Below, in pieces: positions 21,954 to 29,471 of a stretch of 43,787 bases of DNA. Position 1 is the first letter of the stretch, and every line of letters starts with the position of its first letter. The stretch covers positions 1 through 43,787 of the forward strand of contig CANQPO010000009.1 of assembly GCA_947625695.1 (NCBI GenBank), given 5' to 3'. This DNA comes from an uncultured Clostridia bacterium (GTDB taxonomy: Bacteria > Bacillota > Clostridia > Christensenellales > Borkfalkiaceae). Both the position numbers and the translations under genes were made by a program. The notes below the pieces were generated by a model that was not told the origin of the DNA, did no database searches, and worked only from the letters and a program-made list of their open reading frames with translations.

Positions 21954-22200
21954 ATTCTTCCTCAATGCGGGCGTACACCTCTTCGGGCACCTCGCAGGAA
22001 AAATTTTTGTTGAGCAGGCGGTATCTGCGCAGTTTTTTGATACATTCCGCGCTGTCGCAGATGTACGCGCCCCGCCCGGGGAGCTTGCCCGAAAAGTCGA
22101 GACGGATCTCCCCCGCCGCATTCTTTACGACGCGTAGCATCTCGCGCTTGGGCTTTTCCCCGCGGCAGGCGATACAGGTGCGCATGGGGATCTGCTTCAT
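21940..22200 (-). CDS. rnpM: RNase P modulator RnpM (YlxR)
   Basis: 86-residue DUF448 protein. It starts MKQIPMRTCIACRGEKPKREMLRVV, the family signature with the CxxC pair, and has GRGAYICDSAECIKK in the middle. In Bacillus the YlxR protein binds RNase P RNA and tunes its activity; I transfer that by homology. The ATG at 22200 overlaps the nusA stop (ATGA), fixing the start. The stop lies inside ylxQ. Confidence 0.93.
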   Translation of the reverse strand: MKQIPMRTCIACRGEKPKREMLRVVKNAAGEIRLDFSGKLPGRGAYICDSAECIKKLRRYRLLNKNFSCEVPEEVYARIEEEYGAK

Positions 22201-23318
22201 TCCGCCGTCTCCCCCGTTTCGGGCTCGATAGGCTCCGCGGGTCCTACGGGCTCCTCCTGCTCGGTGAGCGCAAGTTTTGCCGCCGCGCTCTCGCTCTTTA
22301 CGTCGATCTTCCAGCCCGTGAGCCTTGCCGCAAGCCGCGCGTTCTGCCCGTCTCTGCCGATCGCAAGGGAGAGTTTGTCGTCGGGCACGACCGCGACCGC
22401 CGATTTTTCGGACATCTGCGTGACCGAGATGACCGTTGCGGGCGAGAGAGATTTTGCGATGAATTCGAGGGGGTTCTCGCTCCAGAGGATGATGTCCACC
22501 TTCTCGCCGCCGAGTTCGGCGACGACCGCATTCACGCGCGCCCCCTTGTTGCCGACGCATGCGCCGACGGGATCGACGTGCGGGTCGGAGGCGTAGATCG
22601 CCATCTTGGTGCGGTGCCCCGCTTCGCGGGCGACCGATTTGATGACGACGGTGCCCTGCTTGATTTCGGGGACCTCCTCCTCAAACAGCCGCTTTACAAA
22701 CCCAGGCGCGGCGCGGGAGACGAGCACCTGCGCGTTTTTGCCGCCGCTCTTGACCCGCTTTACGAACACTTTGAGGCGGTCGCCCGTCTCGTAGCGTTCC
22801 CCGGGGACCTGATCCTGCGGGAGCATGAGCCCCTCGATCTGCCCCTTGCCGAGTTCGATATATACGTTTTTCATATCGACCTTGCGCACCAGCCCGTTCA
22901 TGAGTTCGCCCTCTTTGTCGGAGAACTCGGAGAGGGTGTTGTCGCGCTCCGTCTCGTGGATCTTTTGCAGAATGACCTGTTTTGCGGTCTGCGCGGCGAT
23001 GCGCGAGAAATCCTTGGGGACGAATTCCTCGGAGAGAATGTCCCCGATCTGCACGTCCTTTTTGATCTCCACCGCGTCCTTTAAGAGGATCTCGCCGTCG
23101 AGCGCCTCATCGTTATCCACCACCACGTGTTCGAGGAAGAAGCGGATGGTGCCCTTTTCGGCGTCGAAGTCGATGCGGACCGCGCCCGTCTCGTCCTCAT
23201 ACTGCTTTTTGTATGCAGAGGAGAGGGCGCCGCGGAGCGCCTCGAAAAACACTTCCTCGCTGATCCCCTTTTCCCGTTCGAGATCGGCAAGCGCCGCAAA
23301 GAAATCCTTGTTTACCAT
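22197..23318 (-). CDS. nusA: Transcription termination/antitermination factor NusA
   Basis: RNA polymerase-associated factor controlling pausing and termination. 373 residues: an N-terminal polymerase-binding domain (MVNKDFFAALADLEREKGIS), an S1 domain (about 130-200), and two KH domains with VGACVGNKGARVNAV and AIGRDGQNARLAARLTGW. A short acidic Glu/Pro tail follows. The ATG at 23318 has AAGGAG 8 nt upstream. It is separated from rimP by 455 nt filled with repeats, although in most Bacillota the two genes nearly touch. It overlaps rnpM by ATGA. Confidence 0.97.
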   Translation of the reverse strand: MVNKDFFAALADLEREKGISEEVFFEALRGALSSAYKKQYEDETGAVRIDFDAEKGTIRFFLEHVVVDNDEALDGEILLKDAVEIKKDVQIGDILSEEFVPKDFSRIAAQTAKQVILQKIHETERDNTLSEFSDKEGELMNGLVRKVDMKNVYIELGKGQIEGLMLPQDQVPGERYETGDRLKVFVKRVKSGGKNAQVLVSRAAPGFVKRLFEEEVPEIKQGTVVIKSVAREAGHRTKMAIYASDPHVDPVGACVGNKGARVNAVVAELGGEKVDIILWSENPLEFIAKSLSPATVISVTQMSEKSAVAVVPDDKLSLAIGRDGQNARLAARLTGWKIDVKSESAAAKLALTEQEEPVGPAEPIEPETGETAE

Positions 23319-23773: not shown

Positions 23774-24226
23774 CTACACCTCTATTAAAAGGCAGGCTTT
23801 GGAGATTTTGTCGAGCGGGAAGGAGGCCTCCCCCTGCGCCGTTGCTACCTTGACGTAGCCCTCTTCGAGCCCGAGGAGGGTCCCCTCGTAATACTTCGCC
23901 CCGAAAAGAGGAGCAAACAAATGGATCTCCACCTTTTCGCCCACGTGACGAAGATAATCTTTCTCCGTTTTGAAGGGGCGGTCGAGCCCCGCCGAGGAAC
24001 AGCTCAAAGTGTACGCCGCGCCGAAGGTGGGGTCGAGCTCATCCAACGGCCCGTCCACCGCGCGGTGGAACTTTTCGCAGAGCACAAGGTCCACCCCGCC
24101 CGCGGCGTCGATGTAGACGGCGAGCGTGTTGCCCCGCTCCCATTTTACCTCTACGATCTCCACACCGACCTCCTCCGCAATGGGGGCAAGATAGGCGGCG
24201 ATCTCCGCGGCGGACTTGACTTTCAT
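23774..24226 (-). CDS. rimP: Ribosome maturation factor RimP
   Basis: 30S subunit assembly factor. 150 residues: N-terminal alpha/beta domain (SAAEIAAYLAPIAEEVGVEI with VEVKWERG) and C-terminal SH3-like domain (YEGTLLGLEEGYVKV). The signature LDELDPTFGAAYTLSCSSAGLDRPF is close to the family's SPGLDRPL motif, with Ala in place of Pro. The ATG at 24226 has AAAGGAG upstream. It has its own promoter and a leader with an 11-bp hairpin. rimP-nusA order is kept but stretched by a repeat block. Confidence 0.95.
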   Translation of the reverse strand: MKVKSAAEIAAYLAPIAEEVGVEIVEVKWERGNTLAVYIDAAGGVDLVLCEKFHRAVDGPLDELDPTFGAAYTLSCSSAGLDRPFKTEKDYLRHVGEKVEIHLFAPLFGAKYYEGTLLGLEEGYVKVATAQGEASFPLDKISKACLLIEV

Positions 24227-24346: not shown

Positions 24347-25873
24347 TTAAAAGGAGGAGAAAGGCTTGGGAATCGCCCCTTTTTCGCGCACGAGTTCGAT
24401 GAAAATTTTCGCTGTGACAAATGCATCGTCGAACGCGCGGTGATGGTTGAAGGTAAAACCGTAATAGTCGGCGATGGTGTTGAGCTTATAGTTGCTCAGC
24501 CGGAGCGTCTCCTGCGCGATGGCCACCGTGTCGAACAGGCGGTGGTCGAAGCGGTAACCCGCCTCCTCGCCGTAAAAGCGGACGAACGCGCTGTCGAACG
24601 CGGCGTTGTGGGCGACGAGGGAGCAATCCTTGCAGAATTTGCAGAAGTCGGCGAGCACTTTGTCCACTTCGGGCGCGCCGAGGAGCATGTCGTCCGTGAT
24701 GCCCGTCAGCTCCTTGATCTCGCCGGAAAGACGCACGGGGCAGGCGACGAAGGAGGAGAACTTTTCCTTGATGACGCCGCCCTCGATCTTGACCGCGCCG
24801 ATCTCGATGATGCGGTCCATGCTTCCCCCAACGGGGGAGTGGTTGAGCCCCGTCGTCTCCAAGTCAAACACGACGAAACTTGTTTTTCCGAACTCCTCGG
24901 GGAGGGGCTTTACGCCGAACAGGTCGGCCTGCACGGGATCGGAAATGGGCTCGGGGCGCACTACCTTATACACCGCGGGCACGGGCAGATAAATTTTCTT
25001 CGCGACGTACCCTTCTGGCGGGGCGCCGAGGTCGATCTTGTTTGCCGTAAAGCGGAAACTGCCGTTGAAGAGCTCGTTCGCCCCCGTGAGACACACGCTC
25101 GTCCCCGCTTGCAGGGCGCGCACCTTCTCCACCGTCGCCTTCTTTGCAAAGTAGGAAAGGCTCAAGGAACCGCTCGAATCGCGCACCGTCATGCGGAAAT
25201 AGGGCTTGCCCGTCTTGGTGGTGCGCTCCTCGAGGTGGACGAGCTCCCCGCACAGCGTAACGTTTTGTTCCTCTCCCTTGAGGTCGGCAATGCACAGCGC
25301 GCTTGTGACTTCCGCGCCGTCGATCGCTCCGAAATTCTCCACGGGAAAGACGCGGGGCCCCACCACGACCTCCGCGGGGGGCGGCGCCTCGTGCACAAGT
25401 TCGCGCGGAGCCTTTTCCACGCGGCGATAATCGCCGATCCAGCTCCCGCAAAAGCGGCGGTTGAGTTCGGCGGAGAGGGTGTTCAGAACGTCCCCCGCCG
25501 CAAATTTCTCCCGCTCTTTTTCCTCAACGTCGAGCAAGAACTTCCCGCCCGCGCCGCTTAAGGTGACCTCCACGTCCTCGGGGGTGAAGAATGCCGCCGC
25601 CGCGGGAAAGCGGGTTCTTAAAAGTTCGGAAACGGTCGCCCGAATCCCCTCTTCGCTCGGCACCGACTTGACGACGTTCACTTCCGCCGTGTACCCCGCG
25701 GGCACATAGCGGGAAGAGACCTCCCGCGCGTAGTCGGTGTCCTCCTTGCGGTAGGTGAGGTCTGTGACGAGGCAGAAGGTGACGCGGTCCCCCTCTATGA
25801 TGATCTTTTTGAGGACGGCGCGCTTGAGCCCCGCCGAAAGACGTATTTCGTTTAAGTATGCTTCGCTCTTCAT
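24347..25873 (-). CDS. Polymerase-less PolC: PolC N-terminal and OB domains plus DEDDh 3'-5' exonuclease
   Basis: 508 residues at the position where Bacillota carry polC (between ispG and rimP). Residues about 1-160 look like the PolC N-terminal domains, about 200-290 like the PolC OB domain (VTLCGELVHLEERTTKTGKP), and 333-490 are a proofreading exonuclease with D337-x-E339 (FDLETTGL), D427 (HNAAFDSAF), H478 and D483 (HHRAFDDA). PolC would have a PHP domain split around the exonuclease and a large polymerase domain after it; both are absent, and the gene ends cleanly with TAA shortly after the exonuclease. All five exonuclease residues are kept, so it is likely active. The ATG lacks a clear Shine-Dalgarno sequence. 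A shortened PolC relic turned accessory nuclease is my reading. Confidence 0.85.
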   Translation of the reverse strand: MKSEAYLNEIRLSAGLKRAVLKKIIIEGDRVTFCLVTDLTYRKEDTDYAREVSSRYVPAGYTAEVNVVKSVPSEEGIRATVSELLRTRFPAAAAFFTPEDVEVTLSGAGGKFLLDVEEKEREKFAAGDVLNTLSAELNRRFCGSWIGDYRRVEKAPRELVHEAPPPAEVVVGPRVFPVENFGAIDGAEVTSALCIADLKGEEQNVTLCGELVHLEERTTKTGKPYFRMTVRDSSGSLSLSYFAKKATVEKVRALQAGTSVCLTGANELFNGSFRFTANKIDLGAPPEGYVAKKIYLPVPAVYKVVRPEPISDPVQADLFGVKPLPEEFGKTSFVVFDLETTGLNHSPVGGSMDRIIEIGAVKIEGGVIKEKFSSFVACPVRLSGEIKELTGITDDMLLGAPEVDKVLADFCKFCKDCSLVAHNAAFDSAFVRFYGEEAGYRFDHRLFDTVAIAQETLRLSNYKLNTIADYYGFTFNHHRAFDDAFVTAKIFIELVREKGAIPKPFSSF

Positions 25874-25940
25874 CTGTTCAAAAATTCATTTATTCATTTA
25901 TCTGTTCATCCGAGCCCCACGGAGGGGGCTTCTTGTGCCC

Positions 25941-26054
25941 CTTGGCTCCCCTCGTAGGGGAGCAGTCACCGCAGGTGACTGAAGGGTTCTCCGAGAGCCT
26001 TGTAGAAACCCTTTCCCCCGCTGCGCGGGTACTTTCCCTAAAAGGGACAGCAAG
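25941..26054. repeat. Five-stem dispersed repeat, copy 2 (between ispG and the polC-like gene)
   Basis: Begins CTTGGCTCCCC and ends GGGACAGCAAG. The first loop is CGT instead of TAT. The fourth stem reads CCCGC/GCGGG where copy 1 has GGCAC/GTGCC, a paired change. The third stem is longer and interrupted. Confidence 0.8.
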
Positions 26055-26144
26055 AGTAGCCATCCTTCAAATGTCATGTCGACCGAAGTGGAGACATCTC
26101 TACCGCATTATAATAATGTGAGATTTCTACTTCGTCGCAAGCTC

Positions 26145-26185
26145 CTCGTGCCGCCCTTAGACAACATAGAACGTGCGGGCGGGGC
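26145..26185. repeat. 41-bp dispersed repeat, copy 2
   Basis: Matches 23691-23731 with a single G-to-A difference and the same CCGCCC/GGGCGG ends. It is followed by CTCGAAATGACA motifs. Confidence 0.75.
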
Positions 26186-26275
26186 GACTGCGCTCGAAAT
26201 GACAAATTAAGAACGGCTTCGTTCCGCTCGAAATGACATATTAGAAACATATTAGAAACAGCAAGGAGGTCCCCG

Positions 26276-27316
26276 TCAGCTGTTCAGATATTCCTCAAGG
26301 CGGGTGAAAAAGACTTGCTCCGCTTGCTCCGCGGGTACGCGCTCTTGCGTCTCCCCGCGGAAGATGACGCAATACTTTTCGCCGCCCGCAATGCCGAGAT
26401 CGGCGTCCTTCGCCTCCCCGGGACCGTTGACGACGCACCCCATTACGGCGATCTTCCCCCTCTTCTTGACCCCGCGCACCCGCTCGTTCACCCGTTCGGC
26501 GAGCCCCATGCAGTCGTAGCGGCACCGCCCGCAGGTGGGACAGGAGACGACTTCGATGTAGTCCTTTTCGAGCCCGCAGGCGCGGAGAATGTCGTGCGCA
26601 GCGTACACCTCCTTCACGGGGTCGGAGGTGAGAGAGACGCGGATGGTGTCGCCGATCCCCTGAAGGAGAAGCGCGCCTATGCCGACGCTGCTCTTGACAA
26701 CGCCCATGCGCTCGGTGCCCGCCTCGGTGACGCCCACGTGGAGGGGATAATCCGTCTCCTTTGCGATAAGCTCATACGCCTTCACCGTGAGGGGGACGTC
26801 GGAGGCCTTCACCGAAATAACGAGGTCATTTAAACCGTGCCGCTCGAAAATTTTCACGTTCTCGAGGGCGGAGAGGACGAGCGCCTCGGCGCTTCTGCCG
26901 TATTTTGCAAGAAAATGGGGCTCGATGCTCCCCGTGTTCGCCCCCACGCGGACGGGAATATGATGCGCCTTGACGCAGTCCGCCACGAGGGAGAGCTCTT
27001 TTTCCCCGCCGATGTTGCCCGGGTTGACGCGCAGCTTATCCGCCCCGCTCTCCGTGGCAAGCACCGCGAGCTTTGCCGAAAAGTGAATGTCCGCCACGAG
27101 CGGAAGATGTATTTTTTGTTTGACGGCGGAAATGGCGCGGGCGTCCTCCTCGTCGAGCACGGCGACCCGCACGATATCGCACCCCGCTTCTTCGAGGCGC
27201 AGAATTTGAGCGACGCATTTTTCCACGTCGCTCGTCTTTTCCGTCGTCATGCTCTGCACGGCAATCTTTCCGCCGCCGAGAATGCAATTTCCGACTTTTA
27301 CCTGTTTTTTCGACAT
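26276..27316 (-). CDS. ispG: (E)-4-hydroxy-3-methylbut-2-enyl-diphosphate synthase
   Basis: Iron-sulfur enzyme of the MEP isoprenoid pathway, converting MEcPP to HMBPP. 346 residues. The TIM-barrel part has QSMTTEKTSDVE and VADIHFSAKLA. The [4Fe-4S] ligands by position are C259 and C262 (SCPTCGRC), C294 (MGCVVNGPGEA) and E301. The ATG shares one base with the nrdR stop (TAATG). ispG just before the polC position is a common order in Clostridia. Confidence 0.96.
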   Translation of the reverse strand: MSKKQVKVGNCILGGGKIAVQSMTTEKTSDVEKCVAQILRLEEAGCDIVRVAVLDEEDARAISAVKQKIHLPLVADIHFSAKLAVLATESGADKLRVNPGNIGGEKELSLVADCVKAHHIPVRVGANTGSIEPHFLAKYGRSAEALVLSALENVKIFERHGLNDLVISVKASDVPLTVKAYELIAKETDYPLHVGVTEAGTERMGVVKSSVGIGALLLQGIGDTIRVSLTSDPVKEVYAAHDILRACGLEKDYIEVVSCPTCGRCRYDCMGLAERVNERVRGVKKRGKIAVMGCVVNGPGEAKDADLGIAGGEKYCVIFRGETQERVPAEQAEQVFFTRLEEYLNS

Positions 27317-29120: not shown

Positions 29121-29471
29121 TCAATGATTGCAGCCGCAACCGCAGCCGAGCGCGTATTGGCGCACGTAGTAGGCGTCGTAGGTATTCCCACAGCCGCAGC
29201 CGTTATTGCCGTTGTTTCCGCAGCCGTTGTTGCAGCCGCAGCCGCCCCCGAATCCGTTGTTGCCGCGCGTCTGCACCGTGCCGACGTTCTGCACAAGGTA
29301 GAGATTTCCGCAGCCGCAACCGCTATTGCAGCCGCAGCCGCCGAGCGGGGTGAAGAGATTGGTGAGCGCCGCAAGGAGCGGATCGTAGCCGTTATTGCCG
29401 CAACCGCAACCGTTGTTGCCGTTATTGCCGCAACCGTTGTTGCAGCCGCAGGAATTACAGGTATTGCACAT
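29121..29471 (-). CDS. Small Cys/Asn/Gly-rich repeat protein, function unknown
   Basis: 116 residues with 19 cysteines, mostly as CGC, GCG and NNGCG units; no recognised family. Two copies of a block reading CGCNNGCGNNGNNGCGCGN (N-terminal and around residues 75-95) flank a central hydrophobic part (YDPLLAALTNLFTPL and NLYLVQNVGTVQTRG). The C-terminus is YALGCGCGCNH. There is no signal peptide. Supported as a real gene by its own ribosome site (AGAGGTC), a stem in its leader (29496-29511) and a strong terminator. Metal binding, disulfide cross-linking (spore-coat-like) or a modified-peptide precursor are all possible; none is shown. The other frames over this region give Ala/Thr-rich artefacts. 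Confidence 0.75.
   Translation of the reverse strand: MCNTCNSCGCNNGCGNNGNNGCGCGNNGYDPLLAALTNLFTPLGGCGCNSGCGCGNLYLVQNVGTVQTRGNNGFGGGCGCNNGCGNNGNNGCGCGNTYDAYYVRQYALGCGCGCNH

Follow-up and report, generated by a model that had tools for sequence, protein, structure and literature searches.

A polymerase-less PolC derivative widespread in gut Clostridia points to the probable conversion of a replicase into a stand-alone proofreader

The short gene at the polC locus

The window (the whole stretch of 43,787 nucleotides that was analyzed) carries a gene for a 508-residue protein, which we call the short form, between ispG and rimP-nusA (Table 1). The sequence-only reading had placed here, in the order ispG-X-rimP-nusA where PolC is expected, a 508-residue gene with its own stop codon, a PolC-like N-terminal domain (NTD), an OB domain and a complete DEDDh exonuclease, from which both PHP halves and the polymerase were absent. 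All of this held: the open reading frame was confirmed, as were its neighbors both here and across relatives, each domain matches its PolC counterpart by profile, the five catalytic residues are intact, and the linker is unlike either PHP half. The exonuclease had also been described as joined straight to the OB domain, and this needs correction, as a linker of ~42 residues with a putative clamp-binding motif lies between the two.

Table 1. Features of the polC locus (positions are those of the window; domain boundaries in residues of the 508-aa protein).
Feature	Positions	Strand	Basis or remark
ispG, upstream neighbor as at full-length polC loci	26276..27316	minus	gene neighborhood comparison
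Short PolC-derived gene, 508 aa, NTD-OB-linker-Exo	24347..25873	minus	ORF, Pfam, profile comparison; stop codon 24347-24349
PolC-type NTD, residues 1-185, boundary approximate	25319..25873	minus	profile match to PolC NTD, prob 97, E 8e-11
OB-fold domain, residues 186-290, boundary approximate	25004..25318	minus	PF01336 and PolC OB profile, prob 99.1
Linker, residues 291-332, at the position of PolC's first PHP half	24878..25003	minus	matches none of the compared PolC pieces
Putative beta-clamp-binding motif QADLF, residues 315-319	24917..24931	minus	Q315 and F319 invariant in 29 sequences
DEDDh 3'-5' exonuclease domain (Exo), residues 333-498; D337, E339, D427, H478, D483	24380..24877	minus	Pfam, PDB matches, alignment
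rimP, downstream neighbor, ATG start, AGGAG upstream	23774..24226	minus	gene neighborhood comparison
nusA, ATG start picked by eye	22197..23318	minus	gene neighborhood comparison

In the 508-aa protein Pfam recognizes RNase_T at residues 334-491 (E 1.4e-31) and the OB fold PF01336 at residues 205-280 (E 2.3e-5, slightly below the curated cut-off), together with a chance-level match to the exonuclease domain of B-family polymerases (E 0.17); neither a PHP nor a PolIII-alpha family turned up at E<=1. The top NCBIfam and PDB matches are PolC, with the exonuclease as the best stretch, and the five catalytic residues (Table 1) are all present and are invariant across 29 aligned sequences. When a profile of 14 short forms was compared with one of nine full-length PolC from the same order, PolC positions 52-601 were aligned (prob 100, E 3e-69). 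Because this whole-protein score is dominated by the exonuclease, the domains were also compared separately with the pieces of the nine PolC, the polymerase core being left out of the set. The NTD and OB each matched their counterpart (Table 1; E 9e-19 for OB), as did Exo (prob 100, E 2e-66), whereas non-cognate pairings, including the two PHP pieces and three control proteins, reached a prob of at most 1.9, and the NTD reached at most 0.3 with seven other profiles (four PolC pieces and the three control proteins). The linker profile matched none of the PolC pieces in this set, both PHP halves included.

Set against the features that define PolC, the 508-aa protein has the NTD followed by the OB fold and the DEDDh exonuclease, and it lacks the C-family polymerase core, a PHP domain split by the exonuclease and, at its end, the C-terminal clamp motif QLSLF, one of which is found in all nine full-length PolC (1,317-1,485 aa). 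The product of the short gene thus does not qualify as a PolC protein, since it has neither the polymerase nor the PHP that define one. The only other RNase_T match of the source genome, an assembly that is 81.6% complete, is a 319-aa protein with a C-terminal extension (L183, C3).

By descent the short gene is the polC orthologue. Among the loci listed, the next detected gene upstream is ispG in 28 of 28 short-form loci from genome contigs; the same holds for 10 of 10 short-form loci of other families, with gaps of up to ~1 kb, and for 37 of 40 further loci, the remaining three having rimP or nusA instead. At full-length PolC loci ispG stands in the same place in 8/9. This shared adjacency means that the position of the short gene is the polC position. 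Inspection of the ispG-rimP interval in related genomes, as the sequence-only reading had proposed, showed that sister families carry full-length PolC at the same ispG-rimP-nusA locus, which indicates that the locus once held polC.

The surroundings of the gene are less uniform than its position. In several of the loci L036-L058, from relatives, the short gene and rimP downstream of it are not adjacent but 1-7 kb apart (e.g., L040, L045 and L057), which points to an insertion there. A promoter for rimP directly after the stop codon, claimed earlier, was not recovered by a consensus scan; an extended -10-like sequence, TGGTACAAT, can be picked out by eye behind the stop and is no proof of a promoter. 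The intergenic stretch 25900-26260, which separates the short gene from ispG, is made up of dispersed repeats in a mosaic, with 75 matches in the source genome, itself included, several of them at 90-97% identity; GTCATTTCGAGCG occurs twice exactly, and the mosaic may be a nested non-autonomous element. An Rfam search across the window gave no match. At 29121-29471, on the minus strand, lies a 116-aa repeat protein made mainly of Gly, Cys and Asn, perhaps a coat or surface protein.

Distribution of the short form and the remaining replicase

The source genome is in 93 contigs, and with merely 81.6% completeness its own want of PolC proves little, so that relatives have to decide. We therefore relied on an even draw of 151 genomes of its order, which we take to be GTDB Christensenellales, made up of the source genome and 150 others that are at least 90% complete; the named relative Candidatus Scatosoma is placed by NCBI in Clostridia incertae sedis. 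The PolC polymerase was called with a profile of the PHP-C and polymerase half of PolC, which true PolC match at E<=1e-244. It is present in 57 genomes and the short form in 93, no genome has both, and one (G098) has neither; ispG is also unmatched in G098, that is, the locus is missing from the assembly, and we do not accept this genome as an independent loss. The PolC polymerase and the short form are thus mutually exclusive in the 150 genomes of the sample in which the locus is present. The count of 93 comprises 91 genomes found with the short-form profile and two (G135 and G148) added by a second query, in which the gene lies near ispG. The short form occurs in 15 families (f1, f3, f6, f8, f9, f10, f14, f16, f18, f19, f20, f24, f28, f29 and f32) and PolC in 12 others of the order sample, and no family has both forms.

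The loss of PolC as a replicase, which the sequence-only reading had proposed for the lineage, is supported by this survey: a search for full-length PolC elsewhere found none in the source genome, at 81.6% completeness, or in the 93 short-form genomes. An assembly gap is ruled out as the cause, as relatives up to 99% complete also have no PolC. A split polC with its polymerase half elsewhere is ruled out as well, since in genomes without PolC the best match to the polymerase-half profile is a cross-match at DnaE level (E of at least 1e-38) or there is none (G100 and G168). Beyond the order, the matches listed in a 243-genome sample of the class start at model position 324 or later, which is the exonuclease only, and lie in frames of 1,113-1,592 aa. 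Among the matches listed for a 299-genome sample of the phylum at E<=1e-70, a threshold that would miss degenerate short forms, the source genome stands alone. Five genomes of f11 (G158, G169, G181, G193 and G213) have the PolC polymerase, and the short-form profile gives only weak hits in them, the best at E 3.1e-21 to 9.4e-9; the exonuclease of their PolC is perhaps degenerate or absent, which would mirror the short form.

Trees were built with FastTree and have no outgroup. In the marker tree (ispG+nusA+infB, 61 taxa, G099 being left out for want of marker genes) a split with support 0.98 sets the eight PolC taxa apart from the 53 with the short form. The DnaE1 tree, of 48 taxa, separates 18 PolC genomes and G098 from 29 PolC-less genomes with support 1.0. 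As PolC and short form are separated by one split in both trees, one loss is likely, and the short form probably arose by a single ancestral remodeling of polC; PolC is taken as the ancestral state of these unrooted trees because it is widespread in Clostridia. Acquisition of a foreign DnaE1 is not supported, for the tree of 48 DnaE1, made without outside sequences, follows PolC status as expected of vertical descent. G205 (L143), the sole f19 genome with intact catalytic residues, branches first within f19 in the marker tree, but the DnaE1 tree places it with G088, which belongs to another family.

A count of DnaE genes, another check that had been suggested, gave a single C-family polymerase in the source genome (81.6% complete), a DnaE in a frame of 1207 aa with one PF07733 match, all nine PHP residues intact and the clamp motif QMSLF. 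An intact PHP site and a clamp motif are among the features listed by Timinskas et al. for a DnaE1 able to replicate a genome alone (PMC3919608, in excerpt). The source genome, as far as it is complete, thus has an intact PHP site, a clamp motif and no PolC polymerase, and its relatives agree: the nine metal-site residues HHDHEHCDH are retained in 29/29 PolC-less DnaE1 examined, and a clamp motif is found in 27 of these 29 by a loose pattern whose chance level was not estimated. Among the other 19 of the 48 DnaE1, one (G085) is truncated and one (G086) has its last H replaced by R. Some relatives have a further Pol III alpha-like frame (e.g., 1103 aa in G024). The source genome also encodes a sliding clamp (G000:C7:28407-29096), in a long frame of 470 aa with a moderate Pfam match to the middle domain (E 5.4e-20).

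The linker motif and the lineages with a dead exonuclease

The consensus of bacterial clamp-binding motifs is QL[S/D]LF, in which positions 1, 4 and 5 matter most (PMC3919608, in excerpt), and we used Qxx[LMIF][FL] as the strict motif. The linker between OB and exonuclease, 40-51 residues long across short forms, contains this motif in 63 of the 74 short forms that have all five catalytic residues, against a mean of 2.4 and a maximum of 8 in 1,000 shuffles (36/39 in a preliminary set, with a shuffle mean of 1.2). The 11 without it belong to f6 (7/11), f3 (3/11) and f1 (1/12), and the Q is the sole altered position in five of the 11. The matching interval of full-length PolC has no strict motif in 9/9, and the motif that all nine bear at the C-terminus is missing from the short form; clamp binding was apparently regained at a new place, in the linker. 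We infer from the motif that the short protein binds the beta clamp through QADLF. The short form would then share with DnaQ/epsilon-like proteins a putative clamp motif adjoining the catalytic domain, recognized by its sequence only, in addition to the intact DEDDh site that the 508-aa protein has in common with them.

All five catalytic residues are kept in 74 of the 93 short forms, and the DEDDh pattern is lost in 19 (8/8 in f16, 9/10 in f19 and 2/10 in f32), which we call dead; the 16 of these in the marker tree form three separate clades. Their frames are open over 489-550 aa, the shortest (G148) being cut by a contig end. In all three domains of the nine dead pairs tested, dN is 0.17-0.65, whereas dS exceeds 1 or is saturated; saturation makes exact dN/dS ratios meaningless for these pairs, and dN well below dS indicates purifying selection, so that the dead forms are not pseudogenes. 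Between the short form of the window (G000) and that of G006, dN is likewise well below dS (dN/dS ~0.22 in the NTD, 0.04 in the OB and 0.13 in Exo). In six live groups the exonuclease shows 1.3 to 2.1 times the conservation of the NTD, against 1.0 to 1.35 times in four dead groups.

At the aligned site the strict motif is found in 0/19 dead forms, which have QMNFV, QLSFA, QSSLY and similar sequences there; one dead form (G123) has a strict match elsewhere in its linker. Two dead proteins of f16 (G121 and G183) have a six-residue form, Qxx[LMIF]xF, found in no live form, so that clamp binding may persist there without catalysis. The contrast between live and dead forms counts as three events, not as 19 independent ones, and this covariation argues for a strict motif in the service of the exonuclease and for an additional role of the remainder of the protein. 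Since the protein is kept in 19/93 genomes without the catalytic residues, proofreading cannot be its sole function. The earlier statement that the proofreading part of PolC was kept needs two additions: the retained protein also comprises the NTD and OB, and in 19/93 genomes it persists with a dead exonuclease site.

A probable proofreader in trans and its alternatives

We think it probable that PolC was here remodeled into an epsilon-like, clamp-tethered proofreader that acts in trans on DnaE1. The sequences show that both PHP halves and the polymerase core were lost, the C-terminal clamp motif with them, that NTD, OB and exonuclease were retained in order at the original locus, and that a putative clamp motif foreign to that place in PolC sits in the linker directly before the exonuclease. 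DnaE1, the only replicase found in the source genome, with its intact PHP site and clamp motif, would be the partner: sitting on the beta clamp through QADLF, the short protein would reach the primer terminus held by DnaE1 and excise wrongly inserted nucleotides in trans, adding a second proofreader to the PHP exonuclease that DnaE1 itself carries, with the NTD or OB perhaps contacting DnaE1, tau or single-stranded DNA. Three lineages would later have lost the exonuclease, the protein presumably being kept for an NTD/OB function. The PHP proofreader of DnaE1 bears on this reading in two ways, as it probably allowed the exonuclease to be lost in the three lineages and as it makes a second proofreader not required, which counts against the reading. 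The 11 live short forms that lack the strict motif and the 19 dead ones count against it as well.

We infer trans proofreading of DnaE1 by analogy. Errors made by DnaE in Bacillus subtilis are removed in trans by the exonuclease of PolC, within a template-DnaE-PolC complex (PMC5627055, in excerpt), and in Escherichia coli the clamp is bound by epsilon through a motif next to the catalytic domain (PMC3642679, in excerpt); the clamp motif and the published trans proofreading lend support to a nuclease acting in trans, and most likely the short protein works like epsilon. The N-terminal subdomains of PolC are described as related to domain V of tau (PMC12926913, in excerpt), which makes it conceivable that the NTD touches DnaE or tau; such a contact with DnaE1 or tau is conjecture. 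The fuller history, in which the clade dismantled its second replicase into an epsilon-like, clamp-bound subunit for DnaE1 with a new motif and three lineages turned this subunit into a non-catalytic replisome adaptor, has in our judgment an even chance of being right.

Many repair proteins bind the sliding clamp, and with the PHP site complete in 29/29 PolC-less DnaE1 replicative proofreading may already be covered; the short protein might thus be a clamp-tethered repair or primer-processing nuclease (for 3'-end trimming in mismatch repair, recombination or Okazaki-fragment maturation) and no replicase proofreader. We consider this unlikely, as the exonuclease best matches the replicative PolC proofreader in both NCBIfam and PDB, the PolC NTD and OB are retained alongside it, and B. 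subtilis PolC proofreads DnaE in trans (PMC5627055, in excerpt).

That the protein is chiefly a replisome scaffold, in which NTD and OB tie the clamp to DnaE1, tau, primase or single-stranded DNA and the exonuclease is secondary, has only a small chance of being correct. It would explain why open frames of 489-550 aa outlived the catalytic pattern in three separate lineages, why dN stays well below dS in the NTD, OB and dead exonuclease domain of the nine pairs and why two dead proteins have the six-residue motif form. It sits poorly with the five catalytic residues intact in 74/93, with an exonuclease whose conservation relative to the NTD is higher in live groups (1.3 to 2.1 times) than in dead ones (1.0 to 1.35), and with the absence of the strict clamp motif at its place from 19/19 dead forms.

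Stand-alone DEDDh proteins average more than three per bacterial proteome (PMC12926913, in excerpt), which speaks for an unrelated DnaQ-type nuclease having entered the ispG-rimP interval once polC was gone; we hold this to be very improbable, because NTD and OB each match the PolC counterpart and no other profile compared, in PolC order, and this homology rules out an ordinary DnaQ at the locus. A functionless, decaying remnant, to which the missing parts of PolC might point, can be dismissed almost entirely and is already contradicted by conservation: the short form is present in 93/93 order-sample genomes that hold the locus without the PolC polymerase, its catalytic and motif residues are invariant over 29 sequences, and dN/dS is low in all three domains of the G000-G006 pair.

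With PolC (NF001688, TIGR01405) the short form shares the locus, NTD, OB fold and DEDDh exonuclease, and it differs in having no PHP halves, polymerase core or C-terminal clamp motif and in bearing a motif in the linker instead. E. coli Pol III epsilon/DnaQ is also a separate DEDDh exonuclease, bears a clamp motif next to its catalytic domain (PMC3642679, in excerpt) and has a DnaE1 as its partner, as the short form would, whereas the short form is derived from PolC, has its motif before the catalytic domain rather than after it, possesses NTD and OB and coexists with a DnaE1 whose PHP site is intact. Mycobacterial DnaQ, also a second, separate DEDDh proofreader beside a DnaE1 with active PHP (PMC12926913, in excerpt), is of other origin and architecture. 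Clostridial PolC without an exonuclease and Firmicutes that lost polC have been reported (PMC3919608, PMC3274465), and these also depart from the PolC and DnaE set; there the exonuclease or the whole of polC is missing, whereas here the polymerase is gone and the rest is kept. No description of a PolC without its polymerase was found among the papers listed by a search of open-access literature.

Clostridia have PolC together with a fully equipped DnaE1, and their division of work was called unknown in 2013 (PMC3919608, in excerpt). The clade offers a natural separation of function in which the PolC polymerase was dispensable given DnaE1, the rest was kept in 93/93 short-form genomes and the catalytic exonuclease residues were retained in 74 of those. 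If our reading is true, a separate proofreading subunit has arisen a second time, independently, and the NTD and OB of PolC have a role of their own beyond polymerization and proofreading. The short forms are compact proteins for probing such roles and the trans action of PolC-type proofreading, and antibacterials directed at PolC are predicted to find no target in these gut bacteria. Among phage proteins, the PHROG family phrog_192, annotated as 'DNA polymerase exonuclease subunit', matches the exonuclease domain at E 3.9e-39, the match being confined to residues 331-498 of the short form.
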